Shown here one piece after another: positions 2,632 to 20,137 of a stretch of DNA of 42,898 nucleotides. Each line of letters starts with the position of its first letter. The stretch's first letter is position 1. The DNA is from a virus. The position numbers and the translations under genes are program-made. The notes under the pieces were generated by a model, which saw only the letters and a list, made by a program, of their open reading frames with translations, did no database searches and had not been told where the DNA came from. The DNA lies in IMG/VR virus record IMGVR_UViG_3300027917_000075, positions 1 through 42,898 of that record; one strand, written 5' to 3'.

Positions 2632-4329
2632 TTATTCCTTTTCAGACCAATTAGTTGTCGTCTTAGAAATATTACAGGTGATGGGGACTCTGAATGTTTT
2701 GTAGTCCTCCATCATCTTTTTTATTTGCTTGACTAAAACCTCTTCGTCTTTATGTATTTCAATAACTATCTCGTCGTGAATAGTTAATAGAATGTTGCTC
2801 TTAGTGTCGCGTAACAAGCTATGTACTTTAATCATAGCATTCTTTAGGACACCGGCCGCACAACCTTGAATGAGATAGTTAACAGCTTTGTAGGTCATAT
2901 TCTTATCACAGGTGTAACGTCTACCGAAAACGTCTTGAACATATCCTTTCTCTAATATACGGCGAGGGACATTCCAAGTGAACTTCCTAACCTCGTAATA
3001 GTTATGGTAGTACCGATCAATGAAGGACTTCGCTGAGGTATATGTGTAGTTCGACTCAGGGTAGGCTTGATTGAGGACTTCACAAAAGTGTTTTGGTCCG
3101 ATACCATAGACAATGCCGAAGTTAAGGCGCTTGGCAATGTCCCTCTGTTCTTTCGTATAGTCTTCTCCAAAGATTAACTCTGCTGTCATGCCGTGTAAAT
3201 CTCCGTCGGCACGAGAAAGCTCATCTATCATTTTCTGTTCCTTAGAATAGTGGGCAAGAATTCTAAGCTCAATCTGACTATAGTCAAAATAATAATTGGT
3301 ATAATCAGGACGGCAATTAAAAGATTTACGAATATCGACACTACCACCTCTAGGGATGTTTTGAAGATTTGGCTGTCGACAACTGAATCGACCTGTCTTT
3401 GCACCAACTTGATAAAAGTCACAATGTATTACTCCTTTATCATCAGCACCATCCAACAAACCATAAACATAGGTATTGAGACGTTTAGTTACATCACGCA
3501 TCTCAATGACAAGGGGTATGATAGGATGGTCATATTGTTTTAGATTATAATCATCAAGGACAGGATTACCTGCTTGAGAATATGCGTTGCACTGAATACG
3601 TTCCTCGTCAAATAGAAATTTGCCTAGCTGTTTATTACTTAGAACATTAACATCACCGAACTCTGTTTTAATTCTAGCATTAAGTTCAGCTAAACCCATT
3701 TCACATAATTGTTTTGCTGAGGTAAGATAATCAATATCAAGTTGCGCGCCGCGTTGTTGCATGTCGACGAGAACTTGCAGTAATTTCATTTCCGTTTTAT
3801 ATACGGGATTATCGAGTACGCCTTTGGATCTGTAGAATTCAAAGAGATCCATTGTGTACTCCACATCTTTGAGCGCATACGGTTCCATAATCTCACGAGG
3901 AACTTCTTCGTAGGCTTTGAGTTTGTGCTTTCGCATATATTCTTTAAGTTCTTTCTCTTCACTGGTGTCTGCTCCCAAATACTTCTCTGCTAACCTTTTT
4001 AATGCTTTGCTTGTTTCATCGGGATTATACACAGCAGCCATAATCATTGTGTCGTGTATTTCTCCCTTTACTTCCATACCATAAACTTTTAACATTTGTA
4101 TGTCAAACTTAGCATTATGAAATACTTTAACATAATTAGTACTCATGAGGGCTAAGTCAAGGGGGACAAGGTCATCTTCCCCTATACAGATGTATGACTT
4201 AACGTGGGCTTCCCCGGTCCGCACGTTATAATCTAAGAATTCCTTGTCCCCGTGTATTGAAATAGCGAAAGGTTTATCACCGGTATATGGATTCAGGCCA
4301 GTGGTCTCTGTGTCTACGGCAATTATCAT
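2632..4329 (-). CDS. Family A DNA polymerase with 3'-5' exonuclease domain
   Basis: Replicative DNA polymerase of the Pol I/T7 type, 565 residues. The N-terminal exonuclease shows DTETTG (D6, E8), FHNAKFD (70-76) and YALKDVEYT (about 151-159). The polymerase domain shows KTGRFSCRQPNLQNIP (311-326), motif A DYSQIELR with D349, motif B K400xxxF404GxxYG on the O helix, and motif C HDE (518-520). There is no 5'-3' exonuclease domain, as is usual for phage enzymes. F404 is at the position of E. coli Pol I Phe762, the Phe-type residue used in viral ecology to sort phage Pol A. It is the last gene of the leftward replication operon. Its ATG overlaps the TGA of the upstream 52-codon gene (ATGA), and its stop abuts the stop of the convergent gene with no gap. 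Confidence 0.97.
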   Translation of the reverse strand: MIIAVDTETTGLNPYTGDKPFAISIHGDKEFLDYNVRTGEAHVKSYICIGEDDLVPLDLALMSTNYVKVFHNAKFDIQMLKVYGMEVKGEIHDTMIMAAVYNPDETSKALKRLAEKYLGADTSEEKELKEYMRKHKLKAYEEVPREIMEPYALKDVEYTMDLFEFYRSKGVLDNPVYKTEMKLLQVLVDMQQRGAQLDIDYLTSAKQLCEMGLAELNARIKTEFGDVNVLSNKQLGKFLFDEERIQCNAYSQAGNPVLDDYNLKQYDHPIIPLVIEMRDVTKRLNTYVYGLLDGADDKGVIHCDFYQVGAKTGRFSCRQPNLQNIPRGGSVDIRKSFNCRPDYTNYYFDYSQIELRILAHYSKEQKMIDELSRADGDLHGMTAELIFGEDYTKEQRDIAKRLNFGIVYGIGPKHFCEVLNQAYPESNYTYTSAKSFIDRYYHNYYEVRKFTWNVPRRILEKGYVQDVFGRRYTCDKNMTYKAVNYLIQGCAAGVLKNAMIKVHSLLRDTKSNILLTIHDEIVIEIHKDEEVLVKQIKKMMEDYKTFRVPITCNISKTTTNWSEKE

Positions 4330-4484
4330 AAAAGAACTTCCTTTCGTTTTCTAATTATCTTATACAAATCTCCGTCGAGAAGTTTATTAGTTACTTTTAA
4401 TACTTCTTTTATCTGTGCTACAGAAAGGTTCTTCTTCTTTCCTTCAAGCATTGCTACAGCTACTGAGAAATCTGTTATTTTCAT
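4326..4484 (-). CDS. Small hypothetical protein (52 aa)
   Basis: Short gene directly upstream of the DNA polymerase. It is preceded by a strong SD (AGGAGGATTAAATG) and ends in an ATGA overlap with the polymerase start, so it is likely translated and coupled. The product starts MKITDFSVAVAMLEGKKK and is mainly helical and basic, with a Lys/Arg-rich end. I do not recognise a family. It could be a small polymerase accessory or simply a conserved filler gene; nothing in the sequence decides. Confidence 0.75.
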   Translation of the reverse strand: MKITDFSVAVAMLEGKKKNLSVAQIKEVLKVTNKLLDGDLYKIIRKRKEVLL

Positions 4485-4769
4485 TTAATCCTCCTGTTTA
4501 TCTGGTTTCCATCCAAAATCAACCATTTTATAGTCTCGACCATATTTACTTTTAATTGTTTGGTCGTGTAATTTAAATATCTTTTTATCAATCATATCAT
4601 ATGGAATACTCATTTTTAACCAAACACCGTCTTCATTTCTATAACACAATCTTAAACCAACACGTAACTGTTTACATTTCCTAACAGTATAATCACCACA
4701 ACTAACAATTCCTTTCCAAATTTTTTTAACTTCGTGTTCTAGATAGCCTGCTATAACTCTATCTTCCAT
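4485..4769 (-). CDS. Hypothetical protein (94 aa)
   Basis: Start ATG at 4769 with GGAGG seven bases upstream; the stop sits immediately before the next start at 4484, and the gene overlaps the end of the upstream gene by 11 bases. The product is mixed alpha/beta with several aromatic residues (IWKGIVSCGDYTVRKC, VWLKMSIPYDMIDKKIF) and ends in DFGWKPDKQED. I see no motif. It belongs to the replication operon by position only. Confidence 0.8.
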   Translation of the reverse strand: MEDRVIAGYLEHEVKKIWKGIVSCGDYTVRKCKQLRVGLRLCYRNEDGVWLKMSIPYDMIDKKIFKLHDQTIKSKYGRDYKMVDFGWKPDKQED

Positions 4770-5322
4770 TCACATTCCTCCCTTTATAAGTTGGTCTTAA
4801 CTGCTTTGCAAGAGCAAAGATAGCCCTGCAAGCAGCGTGTGACAAATGATCATCGCTATTATCACCAGAAAGATAAGCGTAGACGTGCATAAGAAGATGA
4901 TTAAGATTTTCTTCAACAGAGAGATTTCTCCAATTATCCTCTCCGTACTTCTCAGCTCCTTTATGCAATACAGCACTGATACCAAGCATAGCGCTAGCAT
5001 CGAAGAGATCGCAACGATAGATAGTTGCACTTTGCTTACCTCCTTCCGCATTAGTTATTATAGGAGCATTAGGCTCAAGTCCTGTAAACTTTTTCTTACG
5101 TCTTGTATAAGGTTTTCTCGGTTTTTTAGTTGGTAATGTTTTTATTTTTTTTATGTCAAATTCATTTAAGTCGTCCAAGATTCTCTTCTCCTTTTCTATA
5201 CAAGCAAAACAACGCTTGTTTATGTTATATAAACTTAATCGTTTACCGCAGTCTTTGCACTTACCTGCTCGTTGTCTTTTTCTTATACTAGATTCACTAC
5301 CAATTTTATCTGCTAACGGCAT
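4759..5322 (-). CDS. Zinc-ribbon fused to MazG-like/dATP-dGTP pyrophosphohydrolase-type domain
   Basis: 187 residues in two parts. The first has a Cys4 zinc ribbon, C22-x2-C25-x12-C38-x2-C41, in a setting LSLYNINKRC, followed by a Lys/Arg-rich linker. The second part (about 105-180) has GAEKYGEDNWR, then a helix with HLLMHVYAYLSGDN, DDHLSHAACRAIFAL. This resembles the all-alpha nucleotide pyrophosphohydrolase family annotated as dATP/dGTP diphosphohydrolase (DUF5664-like), which cleaves dNTPs to dNMPs and PPi; a relative, MazZ, works in 2-aminoadenine phages. Substrate is not deducible here and no PurZ is in the window. An exactly spaced cousin of the zinc ribbon occurs in the gene at 11895-12230. 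SD AGGAG precedes the ATG. Confidence 0.7.
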   Translation of the reverse strand: MPLADKIGSESSIRKRQRAGKCKDCGKRLSLYNINKRCFACIEKEKRILDDLNEFDIKKIKTLPTKKPRKPYTRRKKKFTGLEPNAPIITNAEGGKQSATIYRCDLFDASAMLGISAVLHKGAEKYGEDNWRNLSVEENLNHLLMHVYAYLSGDNSDDHLSHAACRAIFALAKQLRPTYKGRNVNGR

Positions 5323-5555
5323 GCACTCCTGCTCAATTTATAAAGAGCGTTAGCAATATCTATATCATTAGTTTTATCAGAATATCCAATATCTCGACGA
5401 GCTCTAGCTAACATACGTGTCATTGCCGGCGTCTTCCATTCCCCATCGTGTCCGTGCTGCGACTGAATCAACTGATGTAGAGTTTGCAATACTCTTTTGT
5501 TACAAGTTTTCTTAATGAATGCTACTTTTTTTGGATATAAGCGTCCTTTGTTCAT
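5313..5555 (-). CDS. Hypothetical protein (80 aa)
   Basis: ATG at 5555 with GGAGG upstream; its end overlaps the next gene by 10 bases and its start overlaps the end of the AAA+ gene. The product is basic and probably helical, with HQLIQSQHGHDGEWKTPAMTRML and a C-terminal IANALYKLSRSACR that could be a small helical bundle. No family recognised. Tight packing supports translation. Confidence 0.75.
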   Translation of the reverse strand: MNKGRLYPKKVAFIKKTCNKRVLQTLHQLIQSQHGHDGEWKTPAMTRMLARARRDIGYSDKTNDIDIANALYKLSRSACR

Positions 5556-6838
5556 TAGTATTCCTCCACCTCAACAACTTCAGGTTGTTGCATATACGTC
5601 TTGATTAATTTAATGAAAGCAGGAGTCTTGGCATATGCAGTATAGTATTTAATTAAAGCGTTGTTCTTTAATAACTCGGAGACGTGTGTACGTGCTGTGG
5701 TTCTGTCACAGTTAAGCAAGTCCTCAAAATCTTTCAAGGTCACTTGTTTAAGATTAAGAAGCTTGCGTACCGCGTTACGTCCCATGGCATCTAGAACACG
5801 TTCTACTTCTTCAATAGACACAAGGCTTTGTTCAGGATTATGATCTAAACTCCATTCTTGATACATAAAATATTTAGAATCATATATTTCATTAAGCCAT
5901 TCATAAATATACTCGACGTGGTCAGGAGTAACTTTAACCTTCACGCCGTCCTCTGTGCTGAAAAGTCTACAAGCAAGAGAGGTTGCCATTCGGGCAAGCT
6001 TTATTTTTTGCTCCGAAGGATTAACGAGAGGACAAGCGTGAGAATATTTATTATACATTTGCTTAGCTAATGAAAAACAAGCCTCGTAAGCTTTCTTCTC
6101 TATATTAATGTCTGCAGGTTTTCGGCTCCAAGCCCACAAAACTAAATCTCTACAGAGGTCGGAAGTAAAGACATGCGGTACTTCTTCTCTATATGGTGCA
6201 TTAATCAGGTCACTATCAACATCATCGAAGGCAATGATTAAAGCAAAGTCGAATCGGGCGACGTCCTCGGGTTGCGTGACAAGATTTTTAATAATGTCAG
6301 GTCCGGTATTGAAAGCGTTAATAGACAAGTTTTTTCTTGGATTAGAAAACCAAGCAAGACGAGTCCTTGCGTTTGTTCGTGCAGTGCGGATTTTAACAAT
6401 TTCAGCGATACCGGAACTTCGAATTTGGGATAAGGCGGCGATGACTTCAGGGTCCATTCCAGCCATTTCATCAATAATGAGTAATCGTTTGTGGTTAAGA
6501 GGAATTTTTCCCCAATTGACTGTCCAACGAGAATGCAGTTGTTCAAGTCCTCCGATGAGCCCAGCAAACGTAGTTTGTTCACCGCTTGCAAAGGCCCCCA
6601 ATTGGTAATGTTGTAAGAATTTTTTACAGGTTTCTGTCTTTCCACAGCGCGTGTCTCCTATTACTAAACTCTCTAAATATCCTTTACGAATTTCACCGGC
6701 GAATGGTATTTGTAATACACTATGATATACAAGGTCTAAAGCAAAGTGCAGGCTCTGTCTCTCATATATTCTTGTGACATTCGCGGCTAAGTCATTGTAG
6801 ATATAGTTGAGTTGTCTTCTAATTGATTTGGTGCACAT
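5555..6838 (-). CDS. MCM-like AAA+ replicative helicase ATPase
   Basis: 427 residues. Walker A is GDTRCGKT (61-68), Walker B LLIIDE (119-124), sensor 1 WFSNPR (163-168), and an arginine-finger segment EDVARFDFA (R195) resembles the SRFDL motif of MCM proteins. A winged-helix-like end (about 355-395, LKDFEDLLNCDRTTARTHVSELL) also fits MCM architecture. The usual MCM N-terminal zinc/OB region is missing here, but the primase just upstream has an extra C-terminal zinc-containing region that may supply it. The start overlaps the primase end by 52 bases and has GAGGG eight bases upstream. No DnaB-type helicase is present, so this is the likely fork helicase. The ATPase class is clear; helicase function is inferred. 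Confidence 0.82.
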   Translation of the reverse strand: MCTKSIRRQLNYIYNDLAANVTRIYERQSLHFALDLVYHSVLQIPFAGEIRKGYLESLVIGDTRCGKTETCKKFLQHYQLGAFASGEQTTFAGLIGGLEQLHSRWTVNWGKIPLNHKRLLIIDEMAGMDPEVIAALSQIRSSGIAEIVKIRTARTNARTRLAWFSNPRKNLSINAFNTGPDIIKNLVTQPEDVARFDFALIIAFDDVDSDLINAPYREEVPHVFTSDLCRDLVLWAWSRKPADINIEKKAYEACFSLAKQMYNKYSHACPLVNPSEQKIKLARMATSLACRLFSTEDGVKVKVTPDHVEYIYEWLNEIYDSKYFMYQEWSLDHNPEQSLVSIEEVERVLDAMGRNAVRKLLNLKQVTLKDFEDLLNCDRTTARTHVSELLKNNALIKYYTAYAKTPAFIKLIKTYMQQPEVVEVEEY

Positions 6839-13840: not shown

Positions 13841-14047
13841 TTACACAAGTCCAACAGGCAAATTGTTGTCATAATGCTCATCAAAACATTCTTCAGCCTC
13901 AAACTCATTAACAAATAAGCGTGTTGGCTCTATGTCATCAACTTCCAGCGTGTTGGCAAATATCGCCTTAGCTTGTTCTTCATTCATAGCTTCAACATAA
14001 TCTTCATATTCCAATGTTTCTTCATAATAAACTCTAAATAGTTTCAT
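13841..14047 (-). CDS. Small acidic protein (68 aa)
   Basis: MKLFRVYYEETLEYEDYVEAMNEEQAKAIF... is highly acidic, with a beta-helix-beta opening and a C-terminus NNLPVGLV. It overlaps the 3' end of the gene upstream by four bases (ATGA). No family recognised. It follows the ubiquitin-like cassette and its acidic character could fit a mimic or inhibitor, but that is speculation. Confidence 0.7.
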   Translation of the reverse strand: MKLFRVYYEETLEYEDYVEAMNEEQAKAIFANTLEVDDIEPTRLFVNEFEAEECFDEHYDNNLPVGLV

Positions 14048-14535
14048 TTTTCTTTCTCCTTTAGGTCATTGTACTTATTGGCTAAGTAATCTCCAAAGGT
14101 AATTGAAGTGAGAAAATATTTACGGCTTAATACACCAAGTGGCTTACGCCTTAGTATCTGGAATTTCCTAGCTTCATATCTATTTTCTTCGTGATGTTCT
14201 TCTTTAATCACTCTAAAATGCTTATATATCATATTCAAAATGCTACGCTTTGTAGGATAATTAAACGCTTCTAGCTTATCAGGATACAAGTAACCTGTGC
14301 CGTCAGCATAACATCTGAATATCCAATTAGAGCCGTTTTGTTCGTTATTCCTGTAATAATCATTACGCCCTCTTGGTTCTTTAAAACATACTTCTGTACC
14401 AATGCGATTACCATAATAAGTATTGCCTTCTCTTTGCTCACTTATGCCCCTTATGCGTAATCGCCCTACACCCCTTGAATAGCTATTCCAATTATTGAAT
14501 ATAGCTCTATCCTCTATTTGTCTTGCGTAACTCAT
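14044..14535 (-). CDS. Hypothetical protein following the JAB gene (163 aa)
   Basis: Starts MSYARQIEDRAIF after a GGGGG SD, 12 bases beyond the stop of the JAB-like gene. It is rich in Arg, Asn and Tyr, with beta-prone stretches (SNWIFRCYADGTGYLYPDKLEAF) and a basic C-terminal half. No family recognised. Its tight position behind the four-gene cassette makes it a candidate fifth component. Confidence 0.75.
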   Translation of the reverse strand: MSYARQIEDRAIFNNWNSYSRGVGRLRIRGISEQREGNTYYGNRIGTEVCFKEPRGRNDYYRNNEQNGSNWIFRCYADGTGYLYPDKLEAFNYPTKRSILNMIYKHFRVIKEEHHEENRYEARKFQILRRKPLGVLSRKYFLTSITFGDYLANKYNDLKEKEK

Positions 14536-14546
14536 TTATAACCCCC

Positions 14547-15242
14547 TTAATCAAAATGCATAACGCCGTGTTCATTAGCTTCGCCTCTTTCTAAATGCGT
14601 AATAGCGTGATGCCTTTTGCGTTTCTTTTTCTTTTTGCCTTTACCCATTTTACGCTTATCAGTATCCCATTTAGTATTGCCTTCATCTTCCCACCATTTG
14701 CCTTTAGGCATACCTGTATATTGATATGTTTTTTTCGTGATATTATCAAAGCCCTCAATGCTTTCAATAATCGGTGATATAACGGATACATTAGCATCAA
14801 AGAAATGCGTCATCTTACAAGGTAGCTCATAACGCATACACGCTTTCATTTCGCCTTTGTTATTAACAACAATGTGATTTTTGATTAAGCTATTATTTGT
14901 AAATTTCTCGTCAACACCACTAAAGAATACGCCCATAGAAGCGTGAGAATGTATTGTGCAAATAATCCCTCTTTCTTTTATCACATCAGCATTAATTAAG
15001 TCTAAGTTCTTAACAGATGATAGCGTAACTTCTTGCTTAGGTATCCAATAACCCGTAACCCATACGCCCTCTTTATTCTCTATGCCTGTTAATAACATTT
15101 GCCATTCACTTTCAATATCCTTACACAACTTTTTAATAACTGATTGTACTTCAGGCGTTAGCCATATTGTTGAACCTGTATATTGTTCTGCCCAACTGCA
15201 CTCATCTGCATTTGTGCATTTATCTCCTGTATCCCAACTCAT
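14547..15242 (-). CDS. JAB/JAMM-domain isopeptidase-like protein
   Basis: 231 residues. The JAMM zinc-protease signature is complete: E46 (EWQMLLTG), H98-S-H100-x7-S108-x2-D111. Proteins of this kind remove ubiquitin or ubiquitin-like proteins by cleaving isopeptide bonds; relatives are PRTRC protein A, Cap3 and BilC. After the catalytic domain there is a Gly/Trp region and a Lys/Arg block (MGKGKKKKKRKRHH) near 205-218, which could bind nucleic acid. The ATG overlaps the stop of the E1-like gene (ATGA), so the two are coupled. Deubiquitinase-like activity is inferred from motif and context. Confidence 0.88.
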   Translation of the reverse strand: MSWDTGDKCTNADECSWAEQYTGSTIWLTPEVQSVIKKLCKDIESEWQMLLTGIENKEGVWVTGYWIPKQEVTLSSVKNLDLINADVIKERGIICTIHSHASMGVFFSGVDEKFTNNSLIKNHIVVNNKGEMKACMRYELPCKMTHFFDANVSVISPIIESIEGFDNITKKTYQYTGMPKGKWWEDEGNTKWDTDKRKMGKGKKKKKRKRHHAITHLERGEANEHGVMHFD

Positions 15243-16057
15243 AATAAGCCCTCACTTTCTAGTCTATCATCAACATATTCTAGGTCATCATCACTCATAT
15301 TATCTCGATATATGCTGATTATTTTCTCTAAGCGTTTAACCTTTTCACTAGCTTTAACTTTAGGCTGTTTGCCTTGTATAATAGCCCTTAGGTCTAGCTC
15401 AATATCATCATTAATTAAACATCTAGCAAATATGCCTATCCCTGCTGATATACAAGATGTTACTGCATTAGCGTTAGATGTTCTGTATCCTGTTTCATAG
15501 TCATCTGCTGTCCACACATCAAAATTGCTATAACAACCAACATTAAAGCCCTCATAGCCTAGCTTTCTATATGTCATATTGGCTATGTCATTACAATAAT
15601 TAAACAACTGCGTTTGTATCCTTGCATCATCTGTTGTATCCCACAATGTTGCTTTGCTATTATTGTAAAAATATCTAGCCCCCATTGATTTGAAACGCCC
15701 TGTTGCGTTCTTCAATATACTCAATGTGTCTTTCTGAATATTGGTACTCAATGCCATTACAACAGTATCAAGCCTCATTGACCTAATTACTTTGCGTAAT
15801 GCAACAGCTTTATTAGTACCAACCCAAGTTTGTGGTACAGGCAACCTATTCAAATTGCTATAATCTACTGTTTCCCCGTCGATAAGAATAAAATGCCTAT
15901 AACCTAACATAGCTAATTGTATTCCAAGCCAAAAGCCAATGCCACCACAACCCACAATGATATTAATATCATCTTTAGTTAGCTTTGGCGTTAATATACT
16001 ATCAAGCTCAGCTTGTCTTGAATAATCAACAATATTTAATTGTTCTATACTTGCCAT
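15239..16057 (-). CDS. E1/ThiF-like adenylating enzyme
   Basis: 272 residues. The nucleotide-binding GCGGIG lies at 36-41, followed by D60 and SNLNR (67-71) and VGTNKA with K83: the arrangement of ThiF/MoeB/E1 adenylation domains, which activate the C-terminus of a ubiquitin-like protein with ATP. Several cysteines (about 154, 174, 201, 212) could serve as thioester residue; none is decisive. No CxxC zinc motifs are present. It starts inside the end of the E2-like gene (13-base overlap) with a GGGGGG SD and is coupled to the JAB-like gene. The length and neighbours match PRTRC-type ThiF proteins. Adenylating fold is firm; partner is inferred. Confidence 0.9.
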   Translation of the reverse strand: MASIEQLNIVDYSRQAELDSILTPKLTKDDINIIVGCGGIGFWLGIQLAMLGYRHFILIDGETVDYSNLNRLPVPQTWVGTNKAVALRKVIRSMRLDTVVMALSTNIQKDTLSILKNATGRFKSMGARYFYNNSKATLWDTTDDARIQTQLFNYCNDIANMTYRKLGYEGFNVGCYSNFDVWTADDYETGYRTSNANAVTSCISAGIGIFARCLINDDIELDLRAIIQGKQPKVKASEKVKRLEKIISIYRDNMSDDDLEYVDDRLESEGLL

Positions 16058-16761
16058 TGTGTAGCCCCCCTTTCTTCCACGCTTATTATCGTGTCATCAT
16101 TGATAATAGCTTGAAAGTCATAACTAATATTGCCTATTGTTACACTACTACCTGCAGGGCTAAATGTGTTAATCCTATTCATTTGAATAGTTAGGTTTTC
16201 ATCATTTAATCTCCAAAAGTCATTAGCCTTATGCCTACCTGTGCATACATTACTACCATACATAGTATGAAATGTACGCAATTGTGGCGTATACATTTGA
16301 TTAGCTTTCTTGTCATAGCAAAGCACTAATGGAATAGCAAACAACGGCTTAATCTTTAATATCACATTAGCATCTCTATCTCTAAACGCATTCCACATAG
16401 CCCGTCGGTAGTTAATACGAAGCCTATTACGCAACCAACTCATTGAAGCACTAACCTCATTAGGCGAATAGATAATAATGCGTACAGGCATCAACACGCC
16501 ATTAAAAACTATAACAGGCTGATTAAACATACTTTCAGGTATCGCAATAGCCCCTCTTGTTTCAAATTTACGCAAGTGTGCTATTTGCGTATCCCATTCT
16601 TCTTGCATATTATCATTAAGCACTTGCCCAAACTCTTGGGCTAATTGCCCGTGCCTTTCATCATAGAACTCTTTAAGCTCAGCGTTAATATCTATGCCTT
16701 TAGCTTGTATTTCGCTAACAGCATATACTTTGTCGCCTAGCTTTAGATAATTGACTTCCAT
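16045..16761 (-). CDS. E2-like protein (PRTRC protein B / Prok-E2 family D type)
   Basis: 238 residues. The N-terminal half is helical and variable; the C-terminal half has a strand-rich stretch ILKIKPLFAIPLVLCYD, then HTMYGSNVCTGRHKANDFW. The Cys in GSNVCTG (C173) fits the GxVCxG context recalled for prokaryotic E2-like proteins of the PRTRC protein B type, which sit beside E1, JAB and ubiquitin-like genes. This is pattern recognition without a search, so the family call is moderate. It lies between the ubiquitin-like gene and the E1-like gene, the order expected for a conjugation cassette. A GGGGG SD precedes the ATG and a strong hairpin lies immediately before that. Confidence 0.65.
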   Translation of the reverse strand: MEVNYLKLGDKVYAVSEIQAKGIDINAELKEFYDERHGQLAQEFGQVLNDNMQEEWDTQIAHLRKFETRGAIAIPESMFNQPVIVFNGVLMPVRIIIYSPNEVSASMSWLRNRLRINYRRAMWNAFRDRDANVILKIKPLFAIPLVLCYDKKANQMYTPQLRTFHTMYGSNVCTGRHKANDFWRLNDENLTIQMNRINTFSPAGSSVTIGNISYDFQAIINDDTIISVEERGATQWQV

Positions 16762-16783
16762 AGGTTTAACCCCCTTTAGATTA

Positions 16784-16851
16784 GGGCTACGATACTGCTA
16801 AATGATGAGTTTAGAATTGCCAAGTATCACTTGTCTTTTGTATCGTAGCCC
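16784..16851 (-). promoter_or_regulatory. Branched intergenic RNA structure between ubiquitin-like and E2-like genes
   Basis: GGGCTACGATAC (16784-16795) pairs over 12 bp with GTATCGTAGCCC (16840-16851). Enclosed are two further hairpins, CTAAA/TTTAG (16798-16814) and CAAGT/ACTTG (16821-16833), giving a three-way junction. The structure ends a few bases before the SD of the E2-like gene. No U-run follows. It may control relative expression of the ubiquitin-like protein and the enzymes. Confidence 0.75.
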
Positions 16852-16861
16852 CTTTTGTTAT

Positions 16862-17068
16862 TTACTTCTTCGCTTGGTCTAAGACGGCACTAACACGAAT
16901 ATCATTCATATCAACCATATCAGGCAAGTCATCAGGCGTTGTCATCAATTGACCTTTATGAAATACTTTAAAAGCCCCTTTGATGCCTTCATCTTTTGCC
17001 TTTTCAATAATCTTGCTCTTTGCTTCTGCCTTGCTAATTAAACCATTGTCGCTTGTTTCCCATACCAT
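16862..17068 (-). CDS. Ubiquitin-like beta-grasp protein candidate (68 aa)
   Basis: 68 residues. A helix (about 12-27, KAEAKSKIIEKAKDEG) is followed by strands GAFKVFHKGQLM, a DLPD segment and NDIRVSAVLDQ. This matches the second half of ubiquitin in order: helix, LIFAGKQL-like strand, TLSDY-like turn, last strand. The C-terminus is LDQAKK, with no Gly-Gly, as in some prokaryotic ubiquitin-like proteins of E1/E2/JAB cassettes. SD AAGGAG precedes the ATG. It is the first of the four cassette genes. The fold is inferred from pattern and neighbours; a structure prediction would decide. Confidence 0.6.
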   Translation of the reverse strand: MVWETSDNGLISKAEAKSKIIEKAKDEGIKGAFKVFHKGQLMTTPDDLPDMVDMNDIRVSAVLDQAKK

Positions 17069-19298: not shown

Positions 19299-19758
19299 AA
19301 GAATCAGTTTTTATGCGGAAACTTGGACTCAAATTGAGGAAAAGGCTAAAGTACGTAACACGAGCCCCACACAATGGGTTATAGATGCCGCAATGGACCG
19401 TCTACACGGTACGATCCGTGACACGCAACTCGCAATTGACGTTTCTGCACCTGCGAGTAAGCGTCCCAAGCGTCCCAAGACTGAGGTACAGGAAGATAAG
19501 CCTTCGGGCGAGACTCCACCTCCCAATTGGGGCGTGGACATTAAGAGGATACAGGAGCTGCAGGAGGTCGTGGCCCGTGAGAGAGACCTTCTGGAGAGCT
19601 ACCTTAGTGCCACGGTGAGGGATCCTGCCACGGGTGAGGACGTACCGGATAACCCCGACGCTTGGTATATAGTGGAGTGCCGCGAGAGACTAAGCGCGGC
19701 GGAGGAAGAGCTGGATCAGTTGGTTCCAAAGACGGAGGCACCTGATGAGTTGGTATGA
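19282..19758 (+). CDS. Ribbon-helix-helix-like protein with C-terminal coiled-coil region (158 aa)
   Basis: The first 45 residues, IVKRISFYAETWTQIEEKAKVRNTSPTQWVIDAAMDRL, again look like a ribbon-helix-helix domain. A Pro/Lys-rich linker follows, then charged helices (IKRIQELQEVVARERDLLESYL, ECRERLSAAEEELDQL). Its GC content is visibly higher than its neighbours. It may regulate or organise DNA; the tandem arrangement with another RHH-like gene is notable. GGAGG precedes the ATG. Confidence 0.6.
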   Translation: MAKIVKRISFYAETWTQIEEKAKVRNTSPTQWVIDAAMDRLHGTIRDTQLAIDVSAPASKRPKRPKTEVQEDKPSGETPPPNWGVDIKRIQELQEVVARERDLLESYLSATVRDPATGEDVPDNPDAWYIVECRERLSAAEEELDQLVPKTEAPDELV

Positions 19759-20137
19759 ACGAGCCCTAGAACTGCTAGGGGTAAGGAGGAGAGACATGGC
19801 TACATCAGCTATAAACACCGCTACTTATGTGGAAGGGCTGTCTGCTGCGAGGTTGGAAGCCGCTAGACAGCAAATGGAGCACCTAACGGATACAAGTGGT
19901 TGGTACCTTGATCCAGATATAGGAGGTGATTTAGTAGCAAATTGGGATAATGTCACAACCACGGCAAATGGCACCGGTAATGCCCTCTATATACATCAGG
20001 ATGGCGCGTTTCAGCCTGTATATGAGCACGTACCCTATGGAGCTACAATAGCTGTAGCCCCGGAGCCCGAGCCGCGTGTCGTACCTATAACGGACTTTGG
20101 TGAGTGGTTGATGAAGAAATATAACAAAAAGGACTAG
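19745..20137 (+). CDS. Hypothetical protein (130 aa)
   Basis: The ATG at 19745 overlaps the previous stop and has GGAGG at good distance; a second ATG at 19796 also has AAGGAGG upstream, so the true product may be 113 residues. The body contains YVEGLSAARLEAARQQMEHL, then beta-prone segments with GNALYIHQDGAFQPVYEHVPYG, and an end PITDFGEWLMKKYNKKD. No family recognised. Confidence 0.7.
   Translation: MSWYERALELLGVRRRDMATSAINTATYVEGLSAARLEAARQQMEHLTDTSGWYLDPDIGGDLVANWDNVTTTANGTGNALYIHQDGAFQPVYEHVPYGATIAVAPEPEPRVVPITDFGEWLMKKYNKKD

Follow-up and report, generated by a model that had tools for sequence, protein, structure and literature searches.

The 42,898-nt phage record IMGVR_UViG_3300027917_000075 (the window, i.e., the entire 42.9-kb stretch of DNA that was analyzed) carries, on the minus strand at positions 14547-17068, a cassette of genes coding, in this order, for a 68-residue ubiquitin-like protein (Ubl), an E2-like protein, an E1/ThiF-type adenylyltransferase and a JAB/JAMM isopeptidase, and we consider it probable, though well short of certain, that the cassette is a reversible ubiquitin-like conjugation system owned by the phage. 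All four open reading frames (ORFs) are located and ordered as described in an earlier note on this DNA, and the motifs listed there are present: C173 in GSNVCTG of the E2-like protein, GCGGIG (residues 36-41) and SNLNR (residues 67-71) of the E1, and E46 and H98-S-H100-x7-S108-xx-D111 of the JAB. The ORFs are open, and those of the E2-like protein and E1 overlap by 13 nt and those of E1 and JAB by 4 nt (ATGA), which makes the translational coupling of genes 2 to 4 proposed in that note plausible. The record also encodes terminase, portal, PolA, primase and SNF2 helicase proteins; the cassette lies upstream of the replication genes and apart from the tail genes.

The assignments of the E1 and JAB can be regarded as secure at the sequence level. 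In a profile check of all four proteins, as suggested earlier, the E1 matched the Pfam ThiF family (E = 8e-15), the JAB matched Prok-JAB only below the threshold (E = 0.014), and there were no matches to Prok_Ub or Prok-E2_D. Compared with the PDB, the E1 profile retrieves MccB, ThiF, UBA1 and Cap2, and the best matches are MccB and TcdA. Ten aligned E1s share R14, GCGGIG (with I40 in 9 of the 10), D60, N68, R71, K83 and D140/D143, which we take to correspond to the known adenylation residues of the MoeB/E1 proteins. The E1 consists of one adenylation domain and has no conserved catalytic Cys: its sole invariant Cys residue, C37, belongs to the nucleotide loop, and two further Cys columns of the alignment are absent from the window clade. 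Direct transfer of the Ubl from the adenylate to the E2 is therefore likely. The JAMM site of the JAB is complete (ExnHxHx7SxxD), with E46, H98, H100, S108 and D111 invariant in a 10-member alignment, and the JAB profile matches AMSH, Rpn11 and BilC at E values of 0.02-0.3.

Searching viral contigs and phages with the single window E1 or E2 sequences returned no match; relatives were reached via the terminase first and afterwards by profiles. Because counterparts of all four genes recur in the same order in loci L039 (located terminally on a 51.9-kb contig) and L040 (49.2 kb), as well as in 14 loci from large phages, the cassette is more than a chance arrangement. L039 and L040 also share the fifth and sixth genes of the window; their identities to the window proteins are 45-47% for the E1, 45-50% for the JAB and 28-39% for the E2-like protein, and their Ubls are 46% (L039) and 53% (L040) identical to that of the window. 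At a fragment edge, L007 encodes an E2-like protein and a Ubl with 37% and 45% identity, respectively. Of the plasmid-encoded ThiF matches to the L039 E1 that were inspected and rejected, one is located inside a CBASS operon and another next to a peptide-modification gene; some phage ThiF matches, from Acinetobacter "MD-2021a" records, were set aside for their host-like gene names.

The large-phage loci were collected with the E1 profile and then the E2 profile, duplicates being counted once. All 16 have the gene order clamp loader - sliding clamp - Ubl - E2, and E1 and JAB genes come next in each of the 14 that extend far enough, so the cassette order is that of the window. The clamp loader was assigned by phrog_168 (E = 2.5e-62) and the sliding clamp by phrog_223, which matched 2 of 6 members (best E = 4e-7); the latter was not recovered by a PDB profile search. 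The window E1 and JAB match their large-phage counterparts in plain BLAST searches (best E values of 3e-24 and 3e-16, respectively). Among 5519 ORFs, the large-phage Ubl profile finds the window Ubl at an E value of 0.0054 (0.0045 in a separate search), followed by the Ubls of L039 and L040. The large-phage E2 profile places the E2s of L040, L039 and the window directly behind the members of its own family (E = 0.014-0.22). One large phage (L044) has two E2-like genes in tandem, at 4228-5217 and 5224-5970. The arrangement clamp loader - clamp - Ubl - E2 - E1 - JAB is also seen on a 16-kb contig filed under a Thermoplasmata metagenome-assembled genome (L056, JAEHCK010000102.1), which is probably a binned virus.

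Neither the Ubl nor the E2-like protein has a relevant direct match in Pfam, PHROGs, NCBIfam or PADLOC. Of the 15 PDB matches to the 20-member Ubl family profile, 11 are SUMO/Smt3-type proteins (E = 0.0042-0.032), and the AlphaFold2 model of the window Ubl has the beta-grasp order b-b-a-b-b-b-b, with a predicted local distance difference test score (pLDDT) of 73. The beta-grasp-like character of the protein given in the earlier note is consistent with the profile of the relatives and with the predicted strand order, which is of moderate confidence, and structural matches are weak. SUMO/Smt3 is the best sequence-profile match for the phage Ubl family; with an E value of only about 0.004, this indicates likeness rather than membership, and in contrast to the GG of SUMO the phage Ubls of the aligned family end in a single ...AG. 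This end is conserved in 19 of the 20 aligned sequences: relatives terminate in ...QAG or ...VAG, followed by no tail, by R, T, I, LV, LERGF or NVVLV, or by 18 residues (L007 and L039). The window Ubl, which ends in ...LDQAKK, is alone in having K67-K68 after the invariant A66. In the E2-like protein, H165, C173, G175, N198, S201 and A203 are invariant across a 21-row alignment, which provides a conserved Cys with a nearby His in a His-x7-Cys-x-Gly signature (H165, C173, G175). The name E2 is based on these invariant His and Cys residues, on the gene context and on the HPH-x-C motif of a second form of the cassette.

This second form occupies the same locus in L006, L009, L010 and the fragment L013, which extends up to the JAB; the phage clade thus maintains two alternative versions of a Ubl cassette at a single position. 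The gene order of the second form is Ubl, E2, JAB and E1; its Ubl ends in KGG, and its E2-like protein contains HPHV...CWG together with a tail rich in cysteines. In L009, L010 and L013 the E2-like proteins have ten residues from His to Cys, the same spacing as in eukaryotic E2s. The N-terminal stretches of these three proteins (L009, 3460-4608; L010, 4956-6317; L013, 660-1799) match HERC2 at an E value of 0.02, and their cysteine-rich tails are zinc-ribbon-like; it is possible that the two regions represent built-in ligase parts.

A candidate set is also present in cultured phages. In crAss001 (MH675552.1; L053, 1253-5663), gp79 to gp76 resemble Ubl, E2-like protein, JAB and E1; gp76 is annotated as "thiamine biosynthesis protein" (ThiF) and gp77 as a metalloprotease, and the other two are annotated as hypothetical. 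The JAB (gp77, HSHNNMATFFSGTD) and the E1 match the phage-family profiles (2.5e-14 and 4e-13, respectively). gp78 contains HSHV...PCTG, and the N-terminal domain of gp79 resembles ubiquitin in its layout; motif, position and layout are the only grounds on which these two proteins are taken as candidates for E2 and Ubl. gp78 has homologs in 45 phage records, among them those of the cultured phages DAC15 and DAC17. The crAss001 block runs primase - Ubl - E2 - JAB - E1 - uracil-DNA glycosylase (UDG), and the five relatives that were inspected share this context, with primase and UDG annotated in four of them and unannotated in DAC15. In the crAss-like phage cr106_1 (L078, 2699-3902), an HNH endonuclease gene is found between two short ORFs at the place of gp79 and may have split the Ubl gene. 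The E2-like proteins of the crAss and second-form loci showed no significant similarity to the window E2 in profile comparisons, so only their motif and gene context point to an E2. An E2-like protein with HPHM...HGSLCLG is encoded by Xanthomonas phages PhiXhv-12/15/16 and by Erwinia phage Ep032; in PhiXhv-12 (L054, 1790-5666), this is an 892-residue protein with a cysteine-rich tail, encoded between a Ubl candidate ending in ASGG and ThiF, near two topoisomerase genes.

The gap between the Ubl and E2 genes is predicted to form an RNA hairpin. In the window, this 100-nt gap folds far better than its shuffled versions (z = -4.8), and comparable values were obtained for L040 (z = -3.9), L007 (z = -4.4), PhiXhv-12 (z = -3.9), 14 of the 15 large-phage loci (z from -3.1 to -6.0) and all five tested crAss loci (z from -3.7 to -5.8), most of the latter with terminator-like U-runs. 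The stem in the window has no U-run, and a strong hairpin was not found in L070, L039 and L006. As a control, the gap between the clamp and Ubl genes was scored in 15 loci and never went below -2.3; among random windows, 3.9% had scores below -3. The simplest reading is that the hairpin would act as a partial terminator or attenuator, or as a processing site, and would keep the modifier above the enzymes.

The view that the four genes form a Ubl/E2/E1/JAB cassette, expressed in the earlier note, is supported by sequence, gene order and relatives. The kinship to PRTRC, Bil and CBASS considered there is not, because the defining features of their E2, E1 and Ubl were not found: the phage E2 has another motif, the E1 lacks the cysteine, and the genes are arranged differently. 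The plasmid operons of the PRTRC type (family 6d) resemble the phage cassette in carrying Ubl, E2, E1 and JAB as four separate genes on a mobile element, with an E2 of the Prok-E2_D family (Iyer 2006, PMC1779556). However, the 6d E2 lacks an N-terminal His and has its conserved His after the Cys (PMC1779556), whereas the invariant His of the phage proteins precedes it, and the cassette has no match to Prok_Ub, Prok-E2_D or PRTRC models. As the earlier note had stated, neither ParB nor a cyclase accompanies the cassette: ParB_N was not found in the record, which may be incomplete, and a search for a SMODS nucleotidyltransferase (the CD-NTase of CBASS) found none. The Bil system likewise combines Ubl, E2, JAB and E1, and the order Ubl-E2-JAB-E1 of the crAss and second-form loci equals that of BilABCD. 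BilA, however, has two Ubl domains, BilB has a CEHH motif with the His after the Cys, and the BilD E1 is a pseudodimer of an inactive and an active adenylation domain that also has a Cys domain (PMC11354881); the phage cassette has one Ubl domain, no CEHH and the His before the Cys, and its E1 of 272 residues is a single domain in which only C37 (of GCGG) is conserved. CBASS Cap2/Cap3 shares the E1, E2 and JAB chemistry, with Cap2 among the E1 profile matches, but was rejected since its E2 and E1 are fused, while the phage E1 and E2 are separate genes accompanied by a Ubl of their own. The known phage Ubl-JAB pairing in lambda-type tail genes I/K involves genes for tail assembly, with neither an E1 nor an E2 (PMC1779556).

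In the proposed mechanism, the E1 would bind ATP, adenylate the C terminus of the SUMO-like Ubl and probably pass it directly to C173 in the E2-like protein, which would transfer it onto target proteins without a dedicated E3; in some relatives, the zinc-rich E2 extensions could serve as E3. The JAMM enzyme would trim tailed Ubl precursors and remove the Ubl from its targets, and the hairpin after the Ubl gene would maintain a surplus of modifier relative to the enzymes. The positions of these cassettes in several unrelated phage groups, next to the clamp loader and clamp, between primase and UDG, or next to the replication operon, suggest replication or late-transcription proteins synthesized during infection as the likeliest putative targets. 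Of the three roles proposed in the earlier note (tagging of host or virion proteins, resistance to host ubiquitin-like defenses, and regulation of the phage's own replication), the last fits the gene neighborhoods best. A more specific version, in which several phage groups own a SUMO-like system that acts on the replisome during infection, with the modifier dosage set by an attenuator, is tentative, and we consider it clearly less likely than not. If it did, it would provide a viral counterpart of PCNA SUMOylation/ubiquitylation, acting, for example, on the sliding clamp or primase. The same genes could instead serve counter-defense or host takeover, by tagging host proteins or through disturbance of host Bil, Bub or CBASS conjugation by the Ubl, E2 or JAB. 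Host Ubl systems do act against phages (PMC10097602; for Bil, PMC11354881), and a JAB or Ubl encoded by a phage might reverse their action or compete with them. Nevertheless, we consider this role unlikely: a fixed position by the clamp and its loader or between primase and UDG is atypical of variable counter-defense genes, a four-gene set exceeds what an inhibitor needs, and the location by replication genes in three groups favors a function in the DNA metabolism of the phage itself.

Several observations weigh against a working conjugation system. Phage Ubl conjugation is a prediction, and no conjugate has ever been observed. Foldseek searches with the Ubl model gave no match at E < 1, and VIA gave Z scores of at most 4.3, with DNA polymerase kappa on top and HPr, ThiS and ubiquitin/SUMO mixed at Z of ~3, HPr fitting equally well. 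The ubiquitin-conjugating (UBC) fold expected of the 238-residue protein was not recovered: the AlphaFold2 model built from the 21-row alignment has a pLDDT of 58, lowest around the Cys, Foldseek returned only senseless matches and no fold match, and neither the family members nor their profiles matched a known E2 or UBC protein in Pfam or the PDB. The full-length profile-profile match between the window and large-phage E2s is weak (E = 8.6e-4, probability 24%). Finally, the window Ubl has K67-K68 in place of the C-terminal glycine typical of Ubl cassettes, which may make conjugation of this copy inefficient or abolish it. Its AKK end could reflect an impaired copy, an assembly error or trimming by the JAB to A66. 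In CBASS, cGAS with a C-terminal alanine is conjugated at a reduced level (PMC10097602), and by analogy the alanine end of the window Ubl is possibly usable. That the cassette is impaired in the window phage, through loss of the glycine or an assembly error there, appears rather improbable: the replacement by K67 is confined to the window, but A66 is invariant, E1, E2 and JAB retain all their catalytic residues, and the reading frames are open and overlap. Least probable of all is sulfur or small-molecule transfer onto a nucleotide, tRNA or peptide (of the ThiS/MoaD-ThiF or MccB type, with the E2-like protein as acceptor or synthase), which agrees with MccB and TcdA as the top E1 matches, with a single-domain E1 devoid of a catalytic Cys and with an E2 model lacking a UBC fold match, but not with a Ubl profile that finds SUMO rather than ThiS/MoaD by sequence, the invariant E2 motif or the presence, in all complete loci, of a JAMM enzyme whose active site is complete.

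To our knowledge, the ubiquitin-like systems that have been studied in bacteria to date, CBASS and Bil, serve in defense against phages. Candidate complete sets in phages, located by replication genes in more than one group, suggest that phages may use such tagging for their own life cycle, and their presence in cultured crAss-like phages makes this directly testable in laboratory hosts. The available part of the 2006 survey lists phage Ubl-JAB tail genes and no phage E1-E2-JAB-Ubl set (PMC1779556). The open literature, with subscription papers and bioRxiv preprints outside the scope of the search, yielded no description of a phage cassette and nothing relevant on crAss-like phages and ubiquitin, so the novelty of these systems is provisional.

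Predicted features of the cassette region in the window
Feature	Position	Strand	Remarks
Ubl gene, 68 aa	16862..17068	-	
RNA hairpin, predicted	16783..16852	-	Ubl-E2 gap; 13-bp stem GGGCUACGAUAC/GUAUCGUAGCCC
E2-like gene, 238 aa	16045..16761	-	H165 and C173 invariant in 21 homologs
E1-like adenylyltransferase (ThiF) gene, 272 aa	15239..16057	-	R14, GCGGIG, D60, N68, R71, K83, D140/D143
JAB/JAMM isopeptidase gene, 231 aa	14547..15242	-	E46, H98, H100, S108, D111
Fifth gene, 163 aa	14044..14535	-	Directly 3' of JAB; place conserved in L039 and L040
Sixth gene, 68 aa	13841..14047	-	Place conserved in L039 and L040 (E = 1e-8)

The product of the fifth gene is 31% identical to its L039 counterpart (E = 1e-12) and matches that of L040 at E = 3e-4; this gene may be a part of the cassette operon. 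At the 5' end of the record, positions 133-2631 encode a protein that resembles a portion of an internal virion protein of phages (phrog_6651); its gene adjoins the polymerase gene and is distant from the other structural genes of the window. Several otherwise dissimilar proteins of the window phage clade end in the motif [FWYL]LxxKYN (7 proteins observed versus 1.2 expected), including those encoded at 14044-14535 and 19745-20137 of the window and others in L002, L003, L039 and L040/L041, and this C-terminal motif could be a docking tag.

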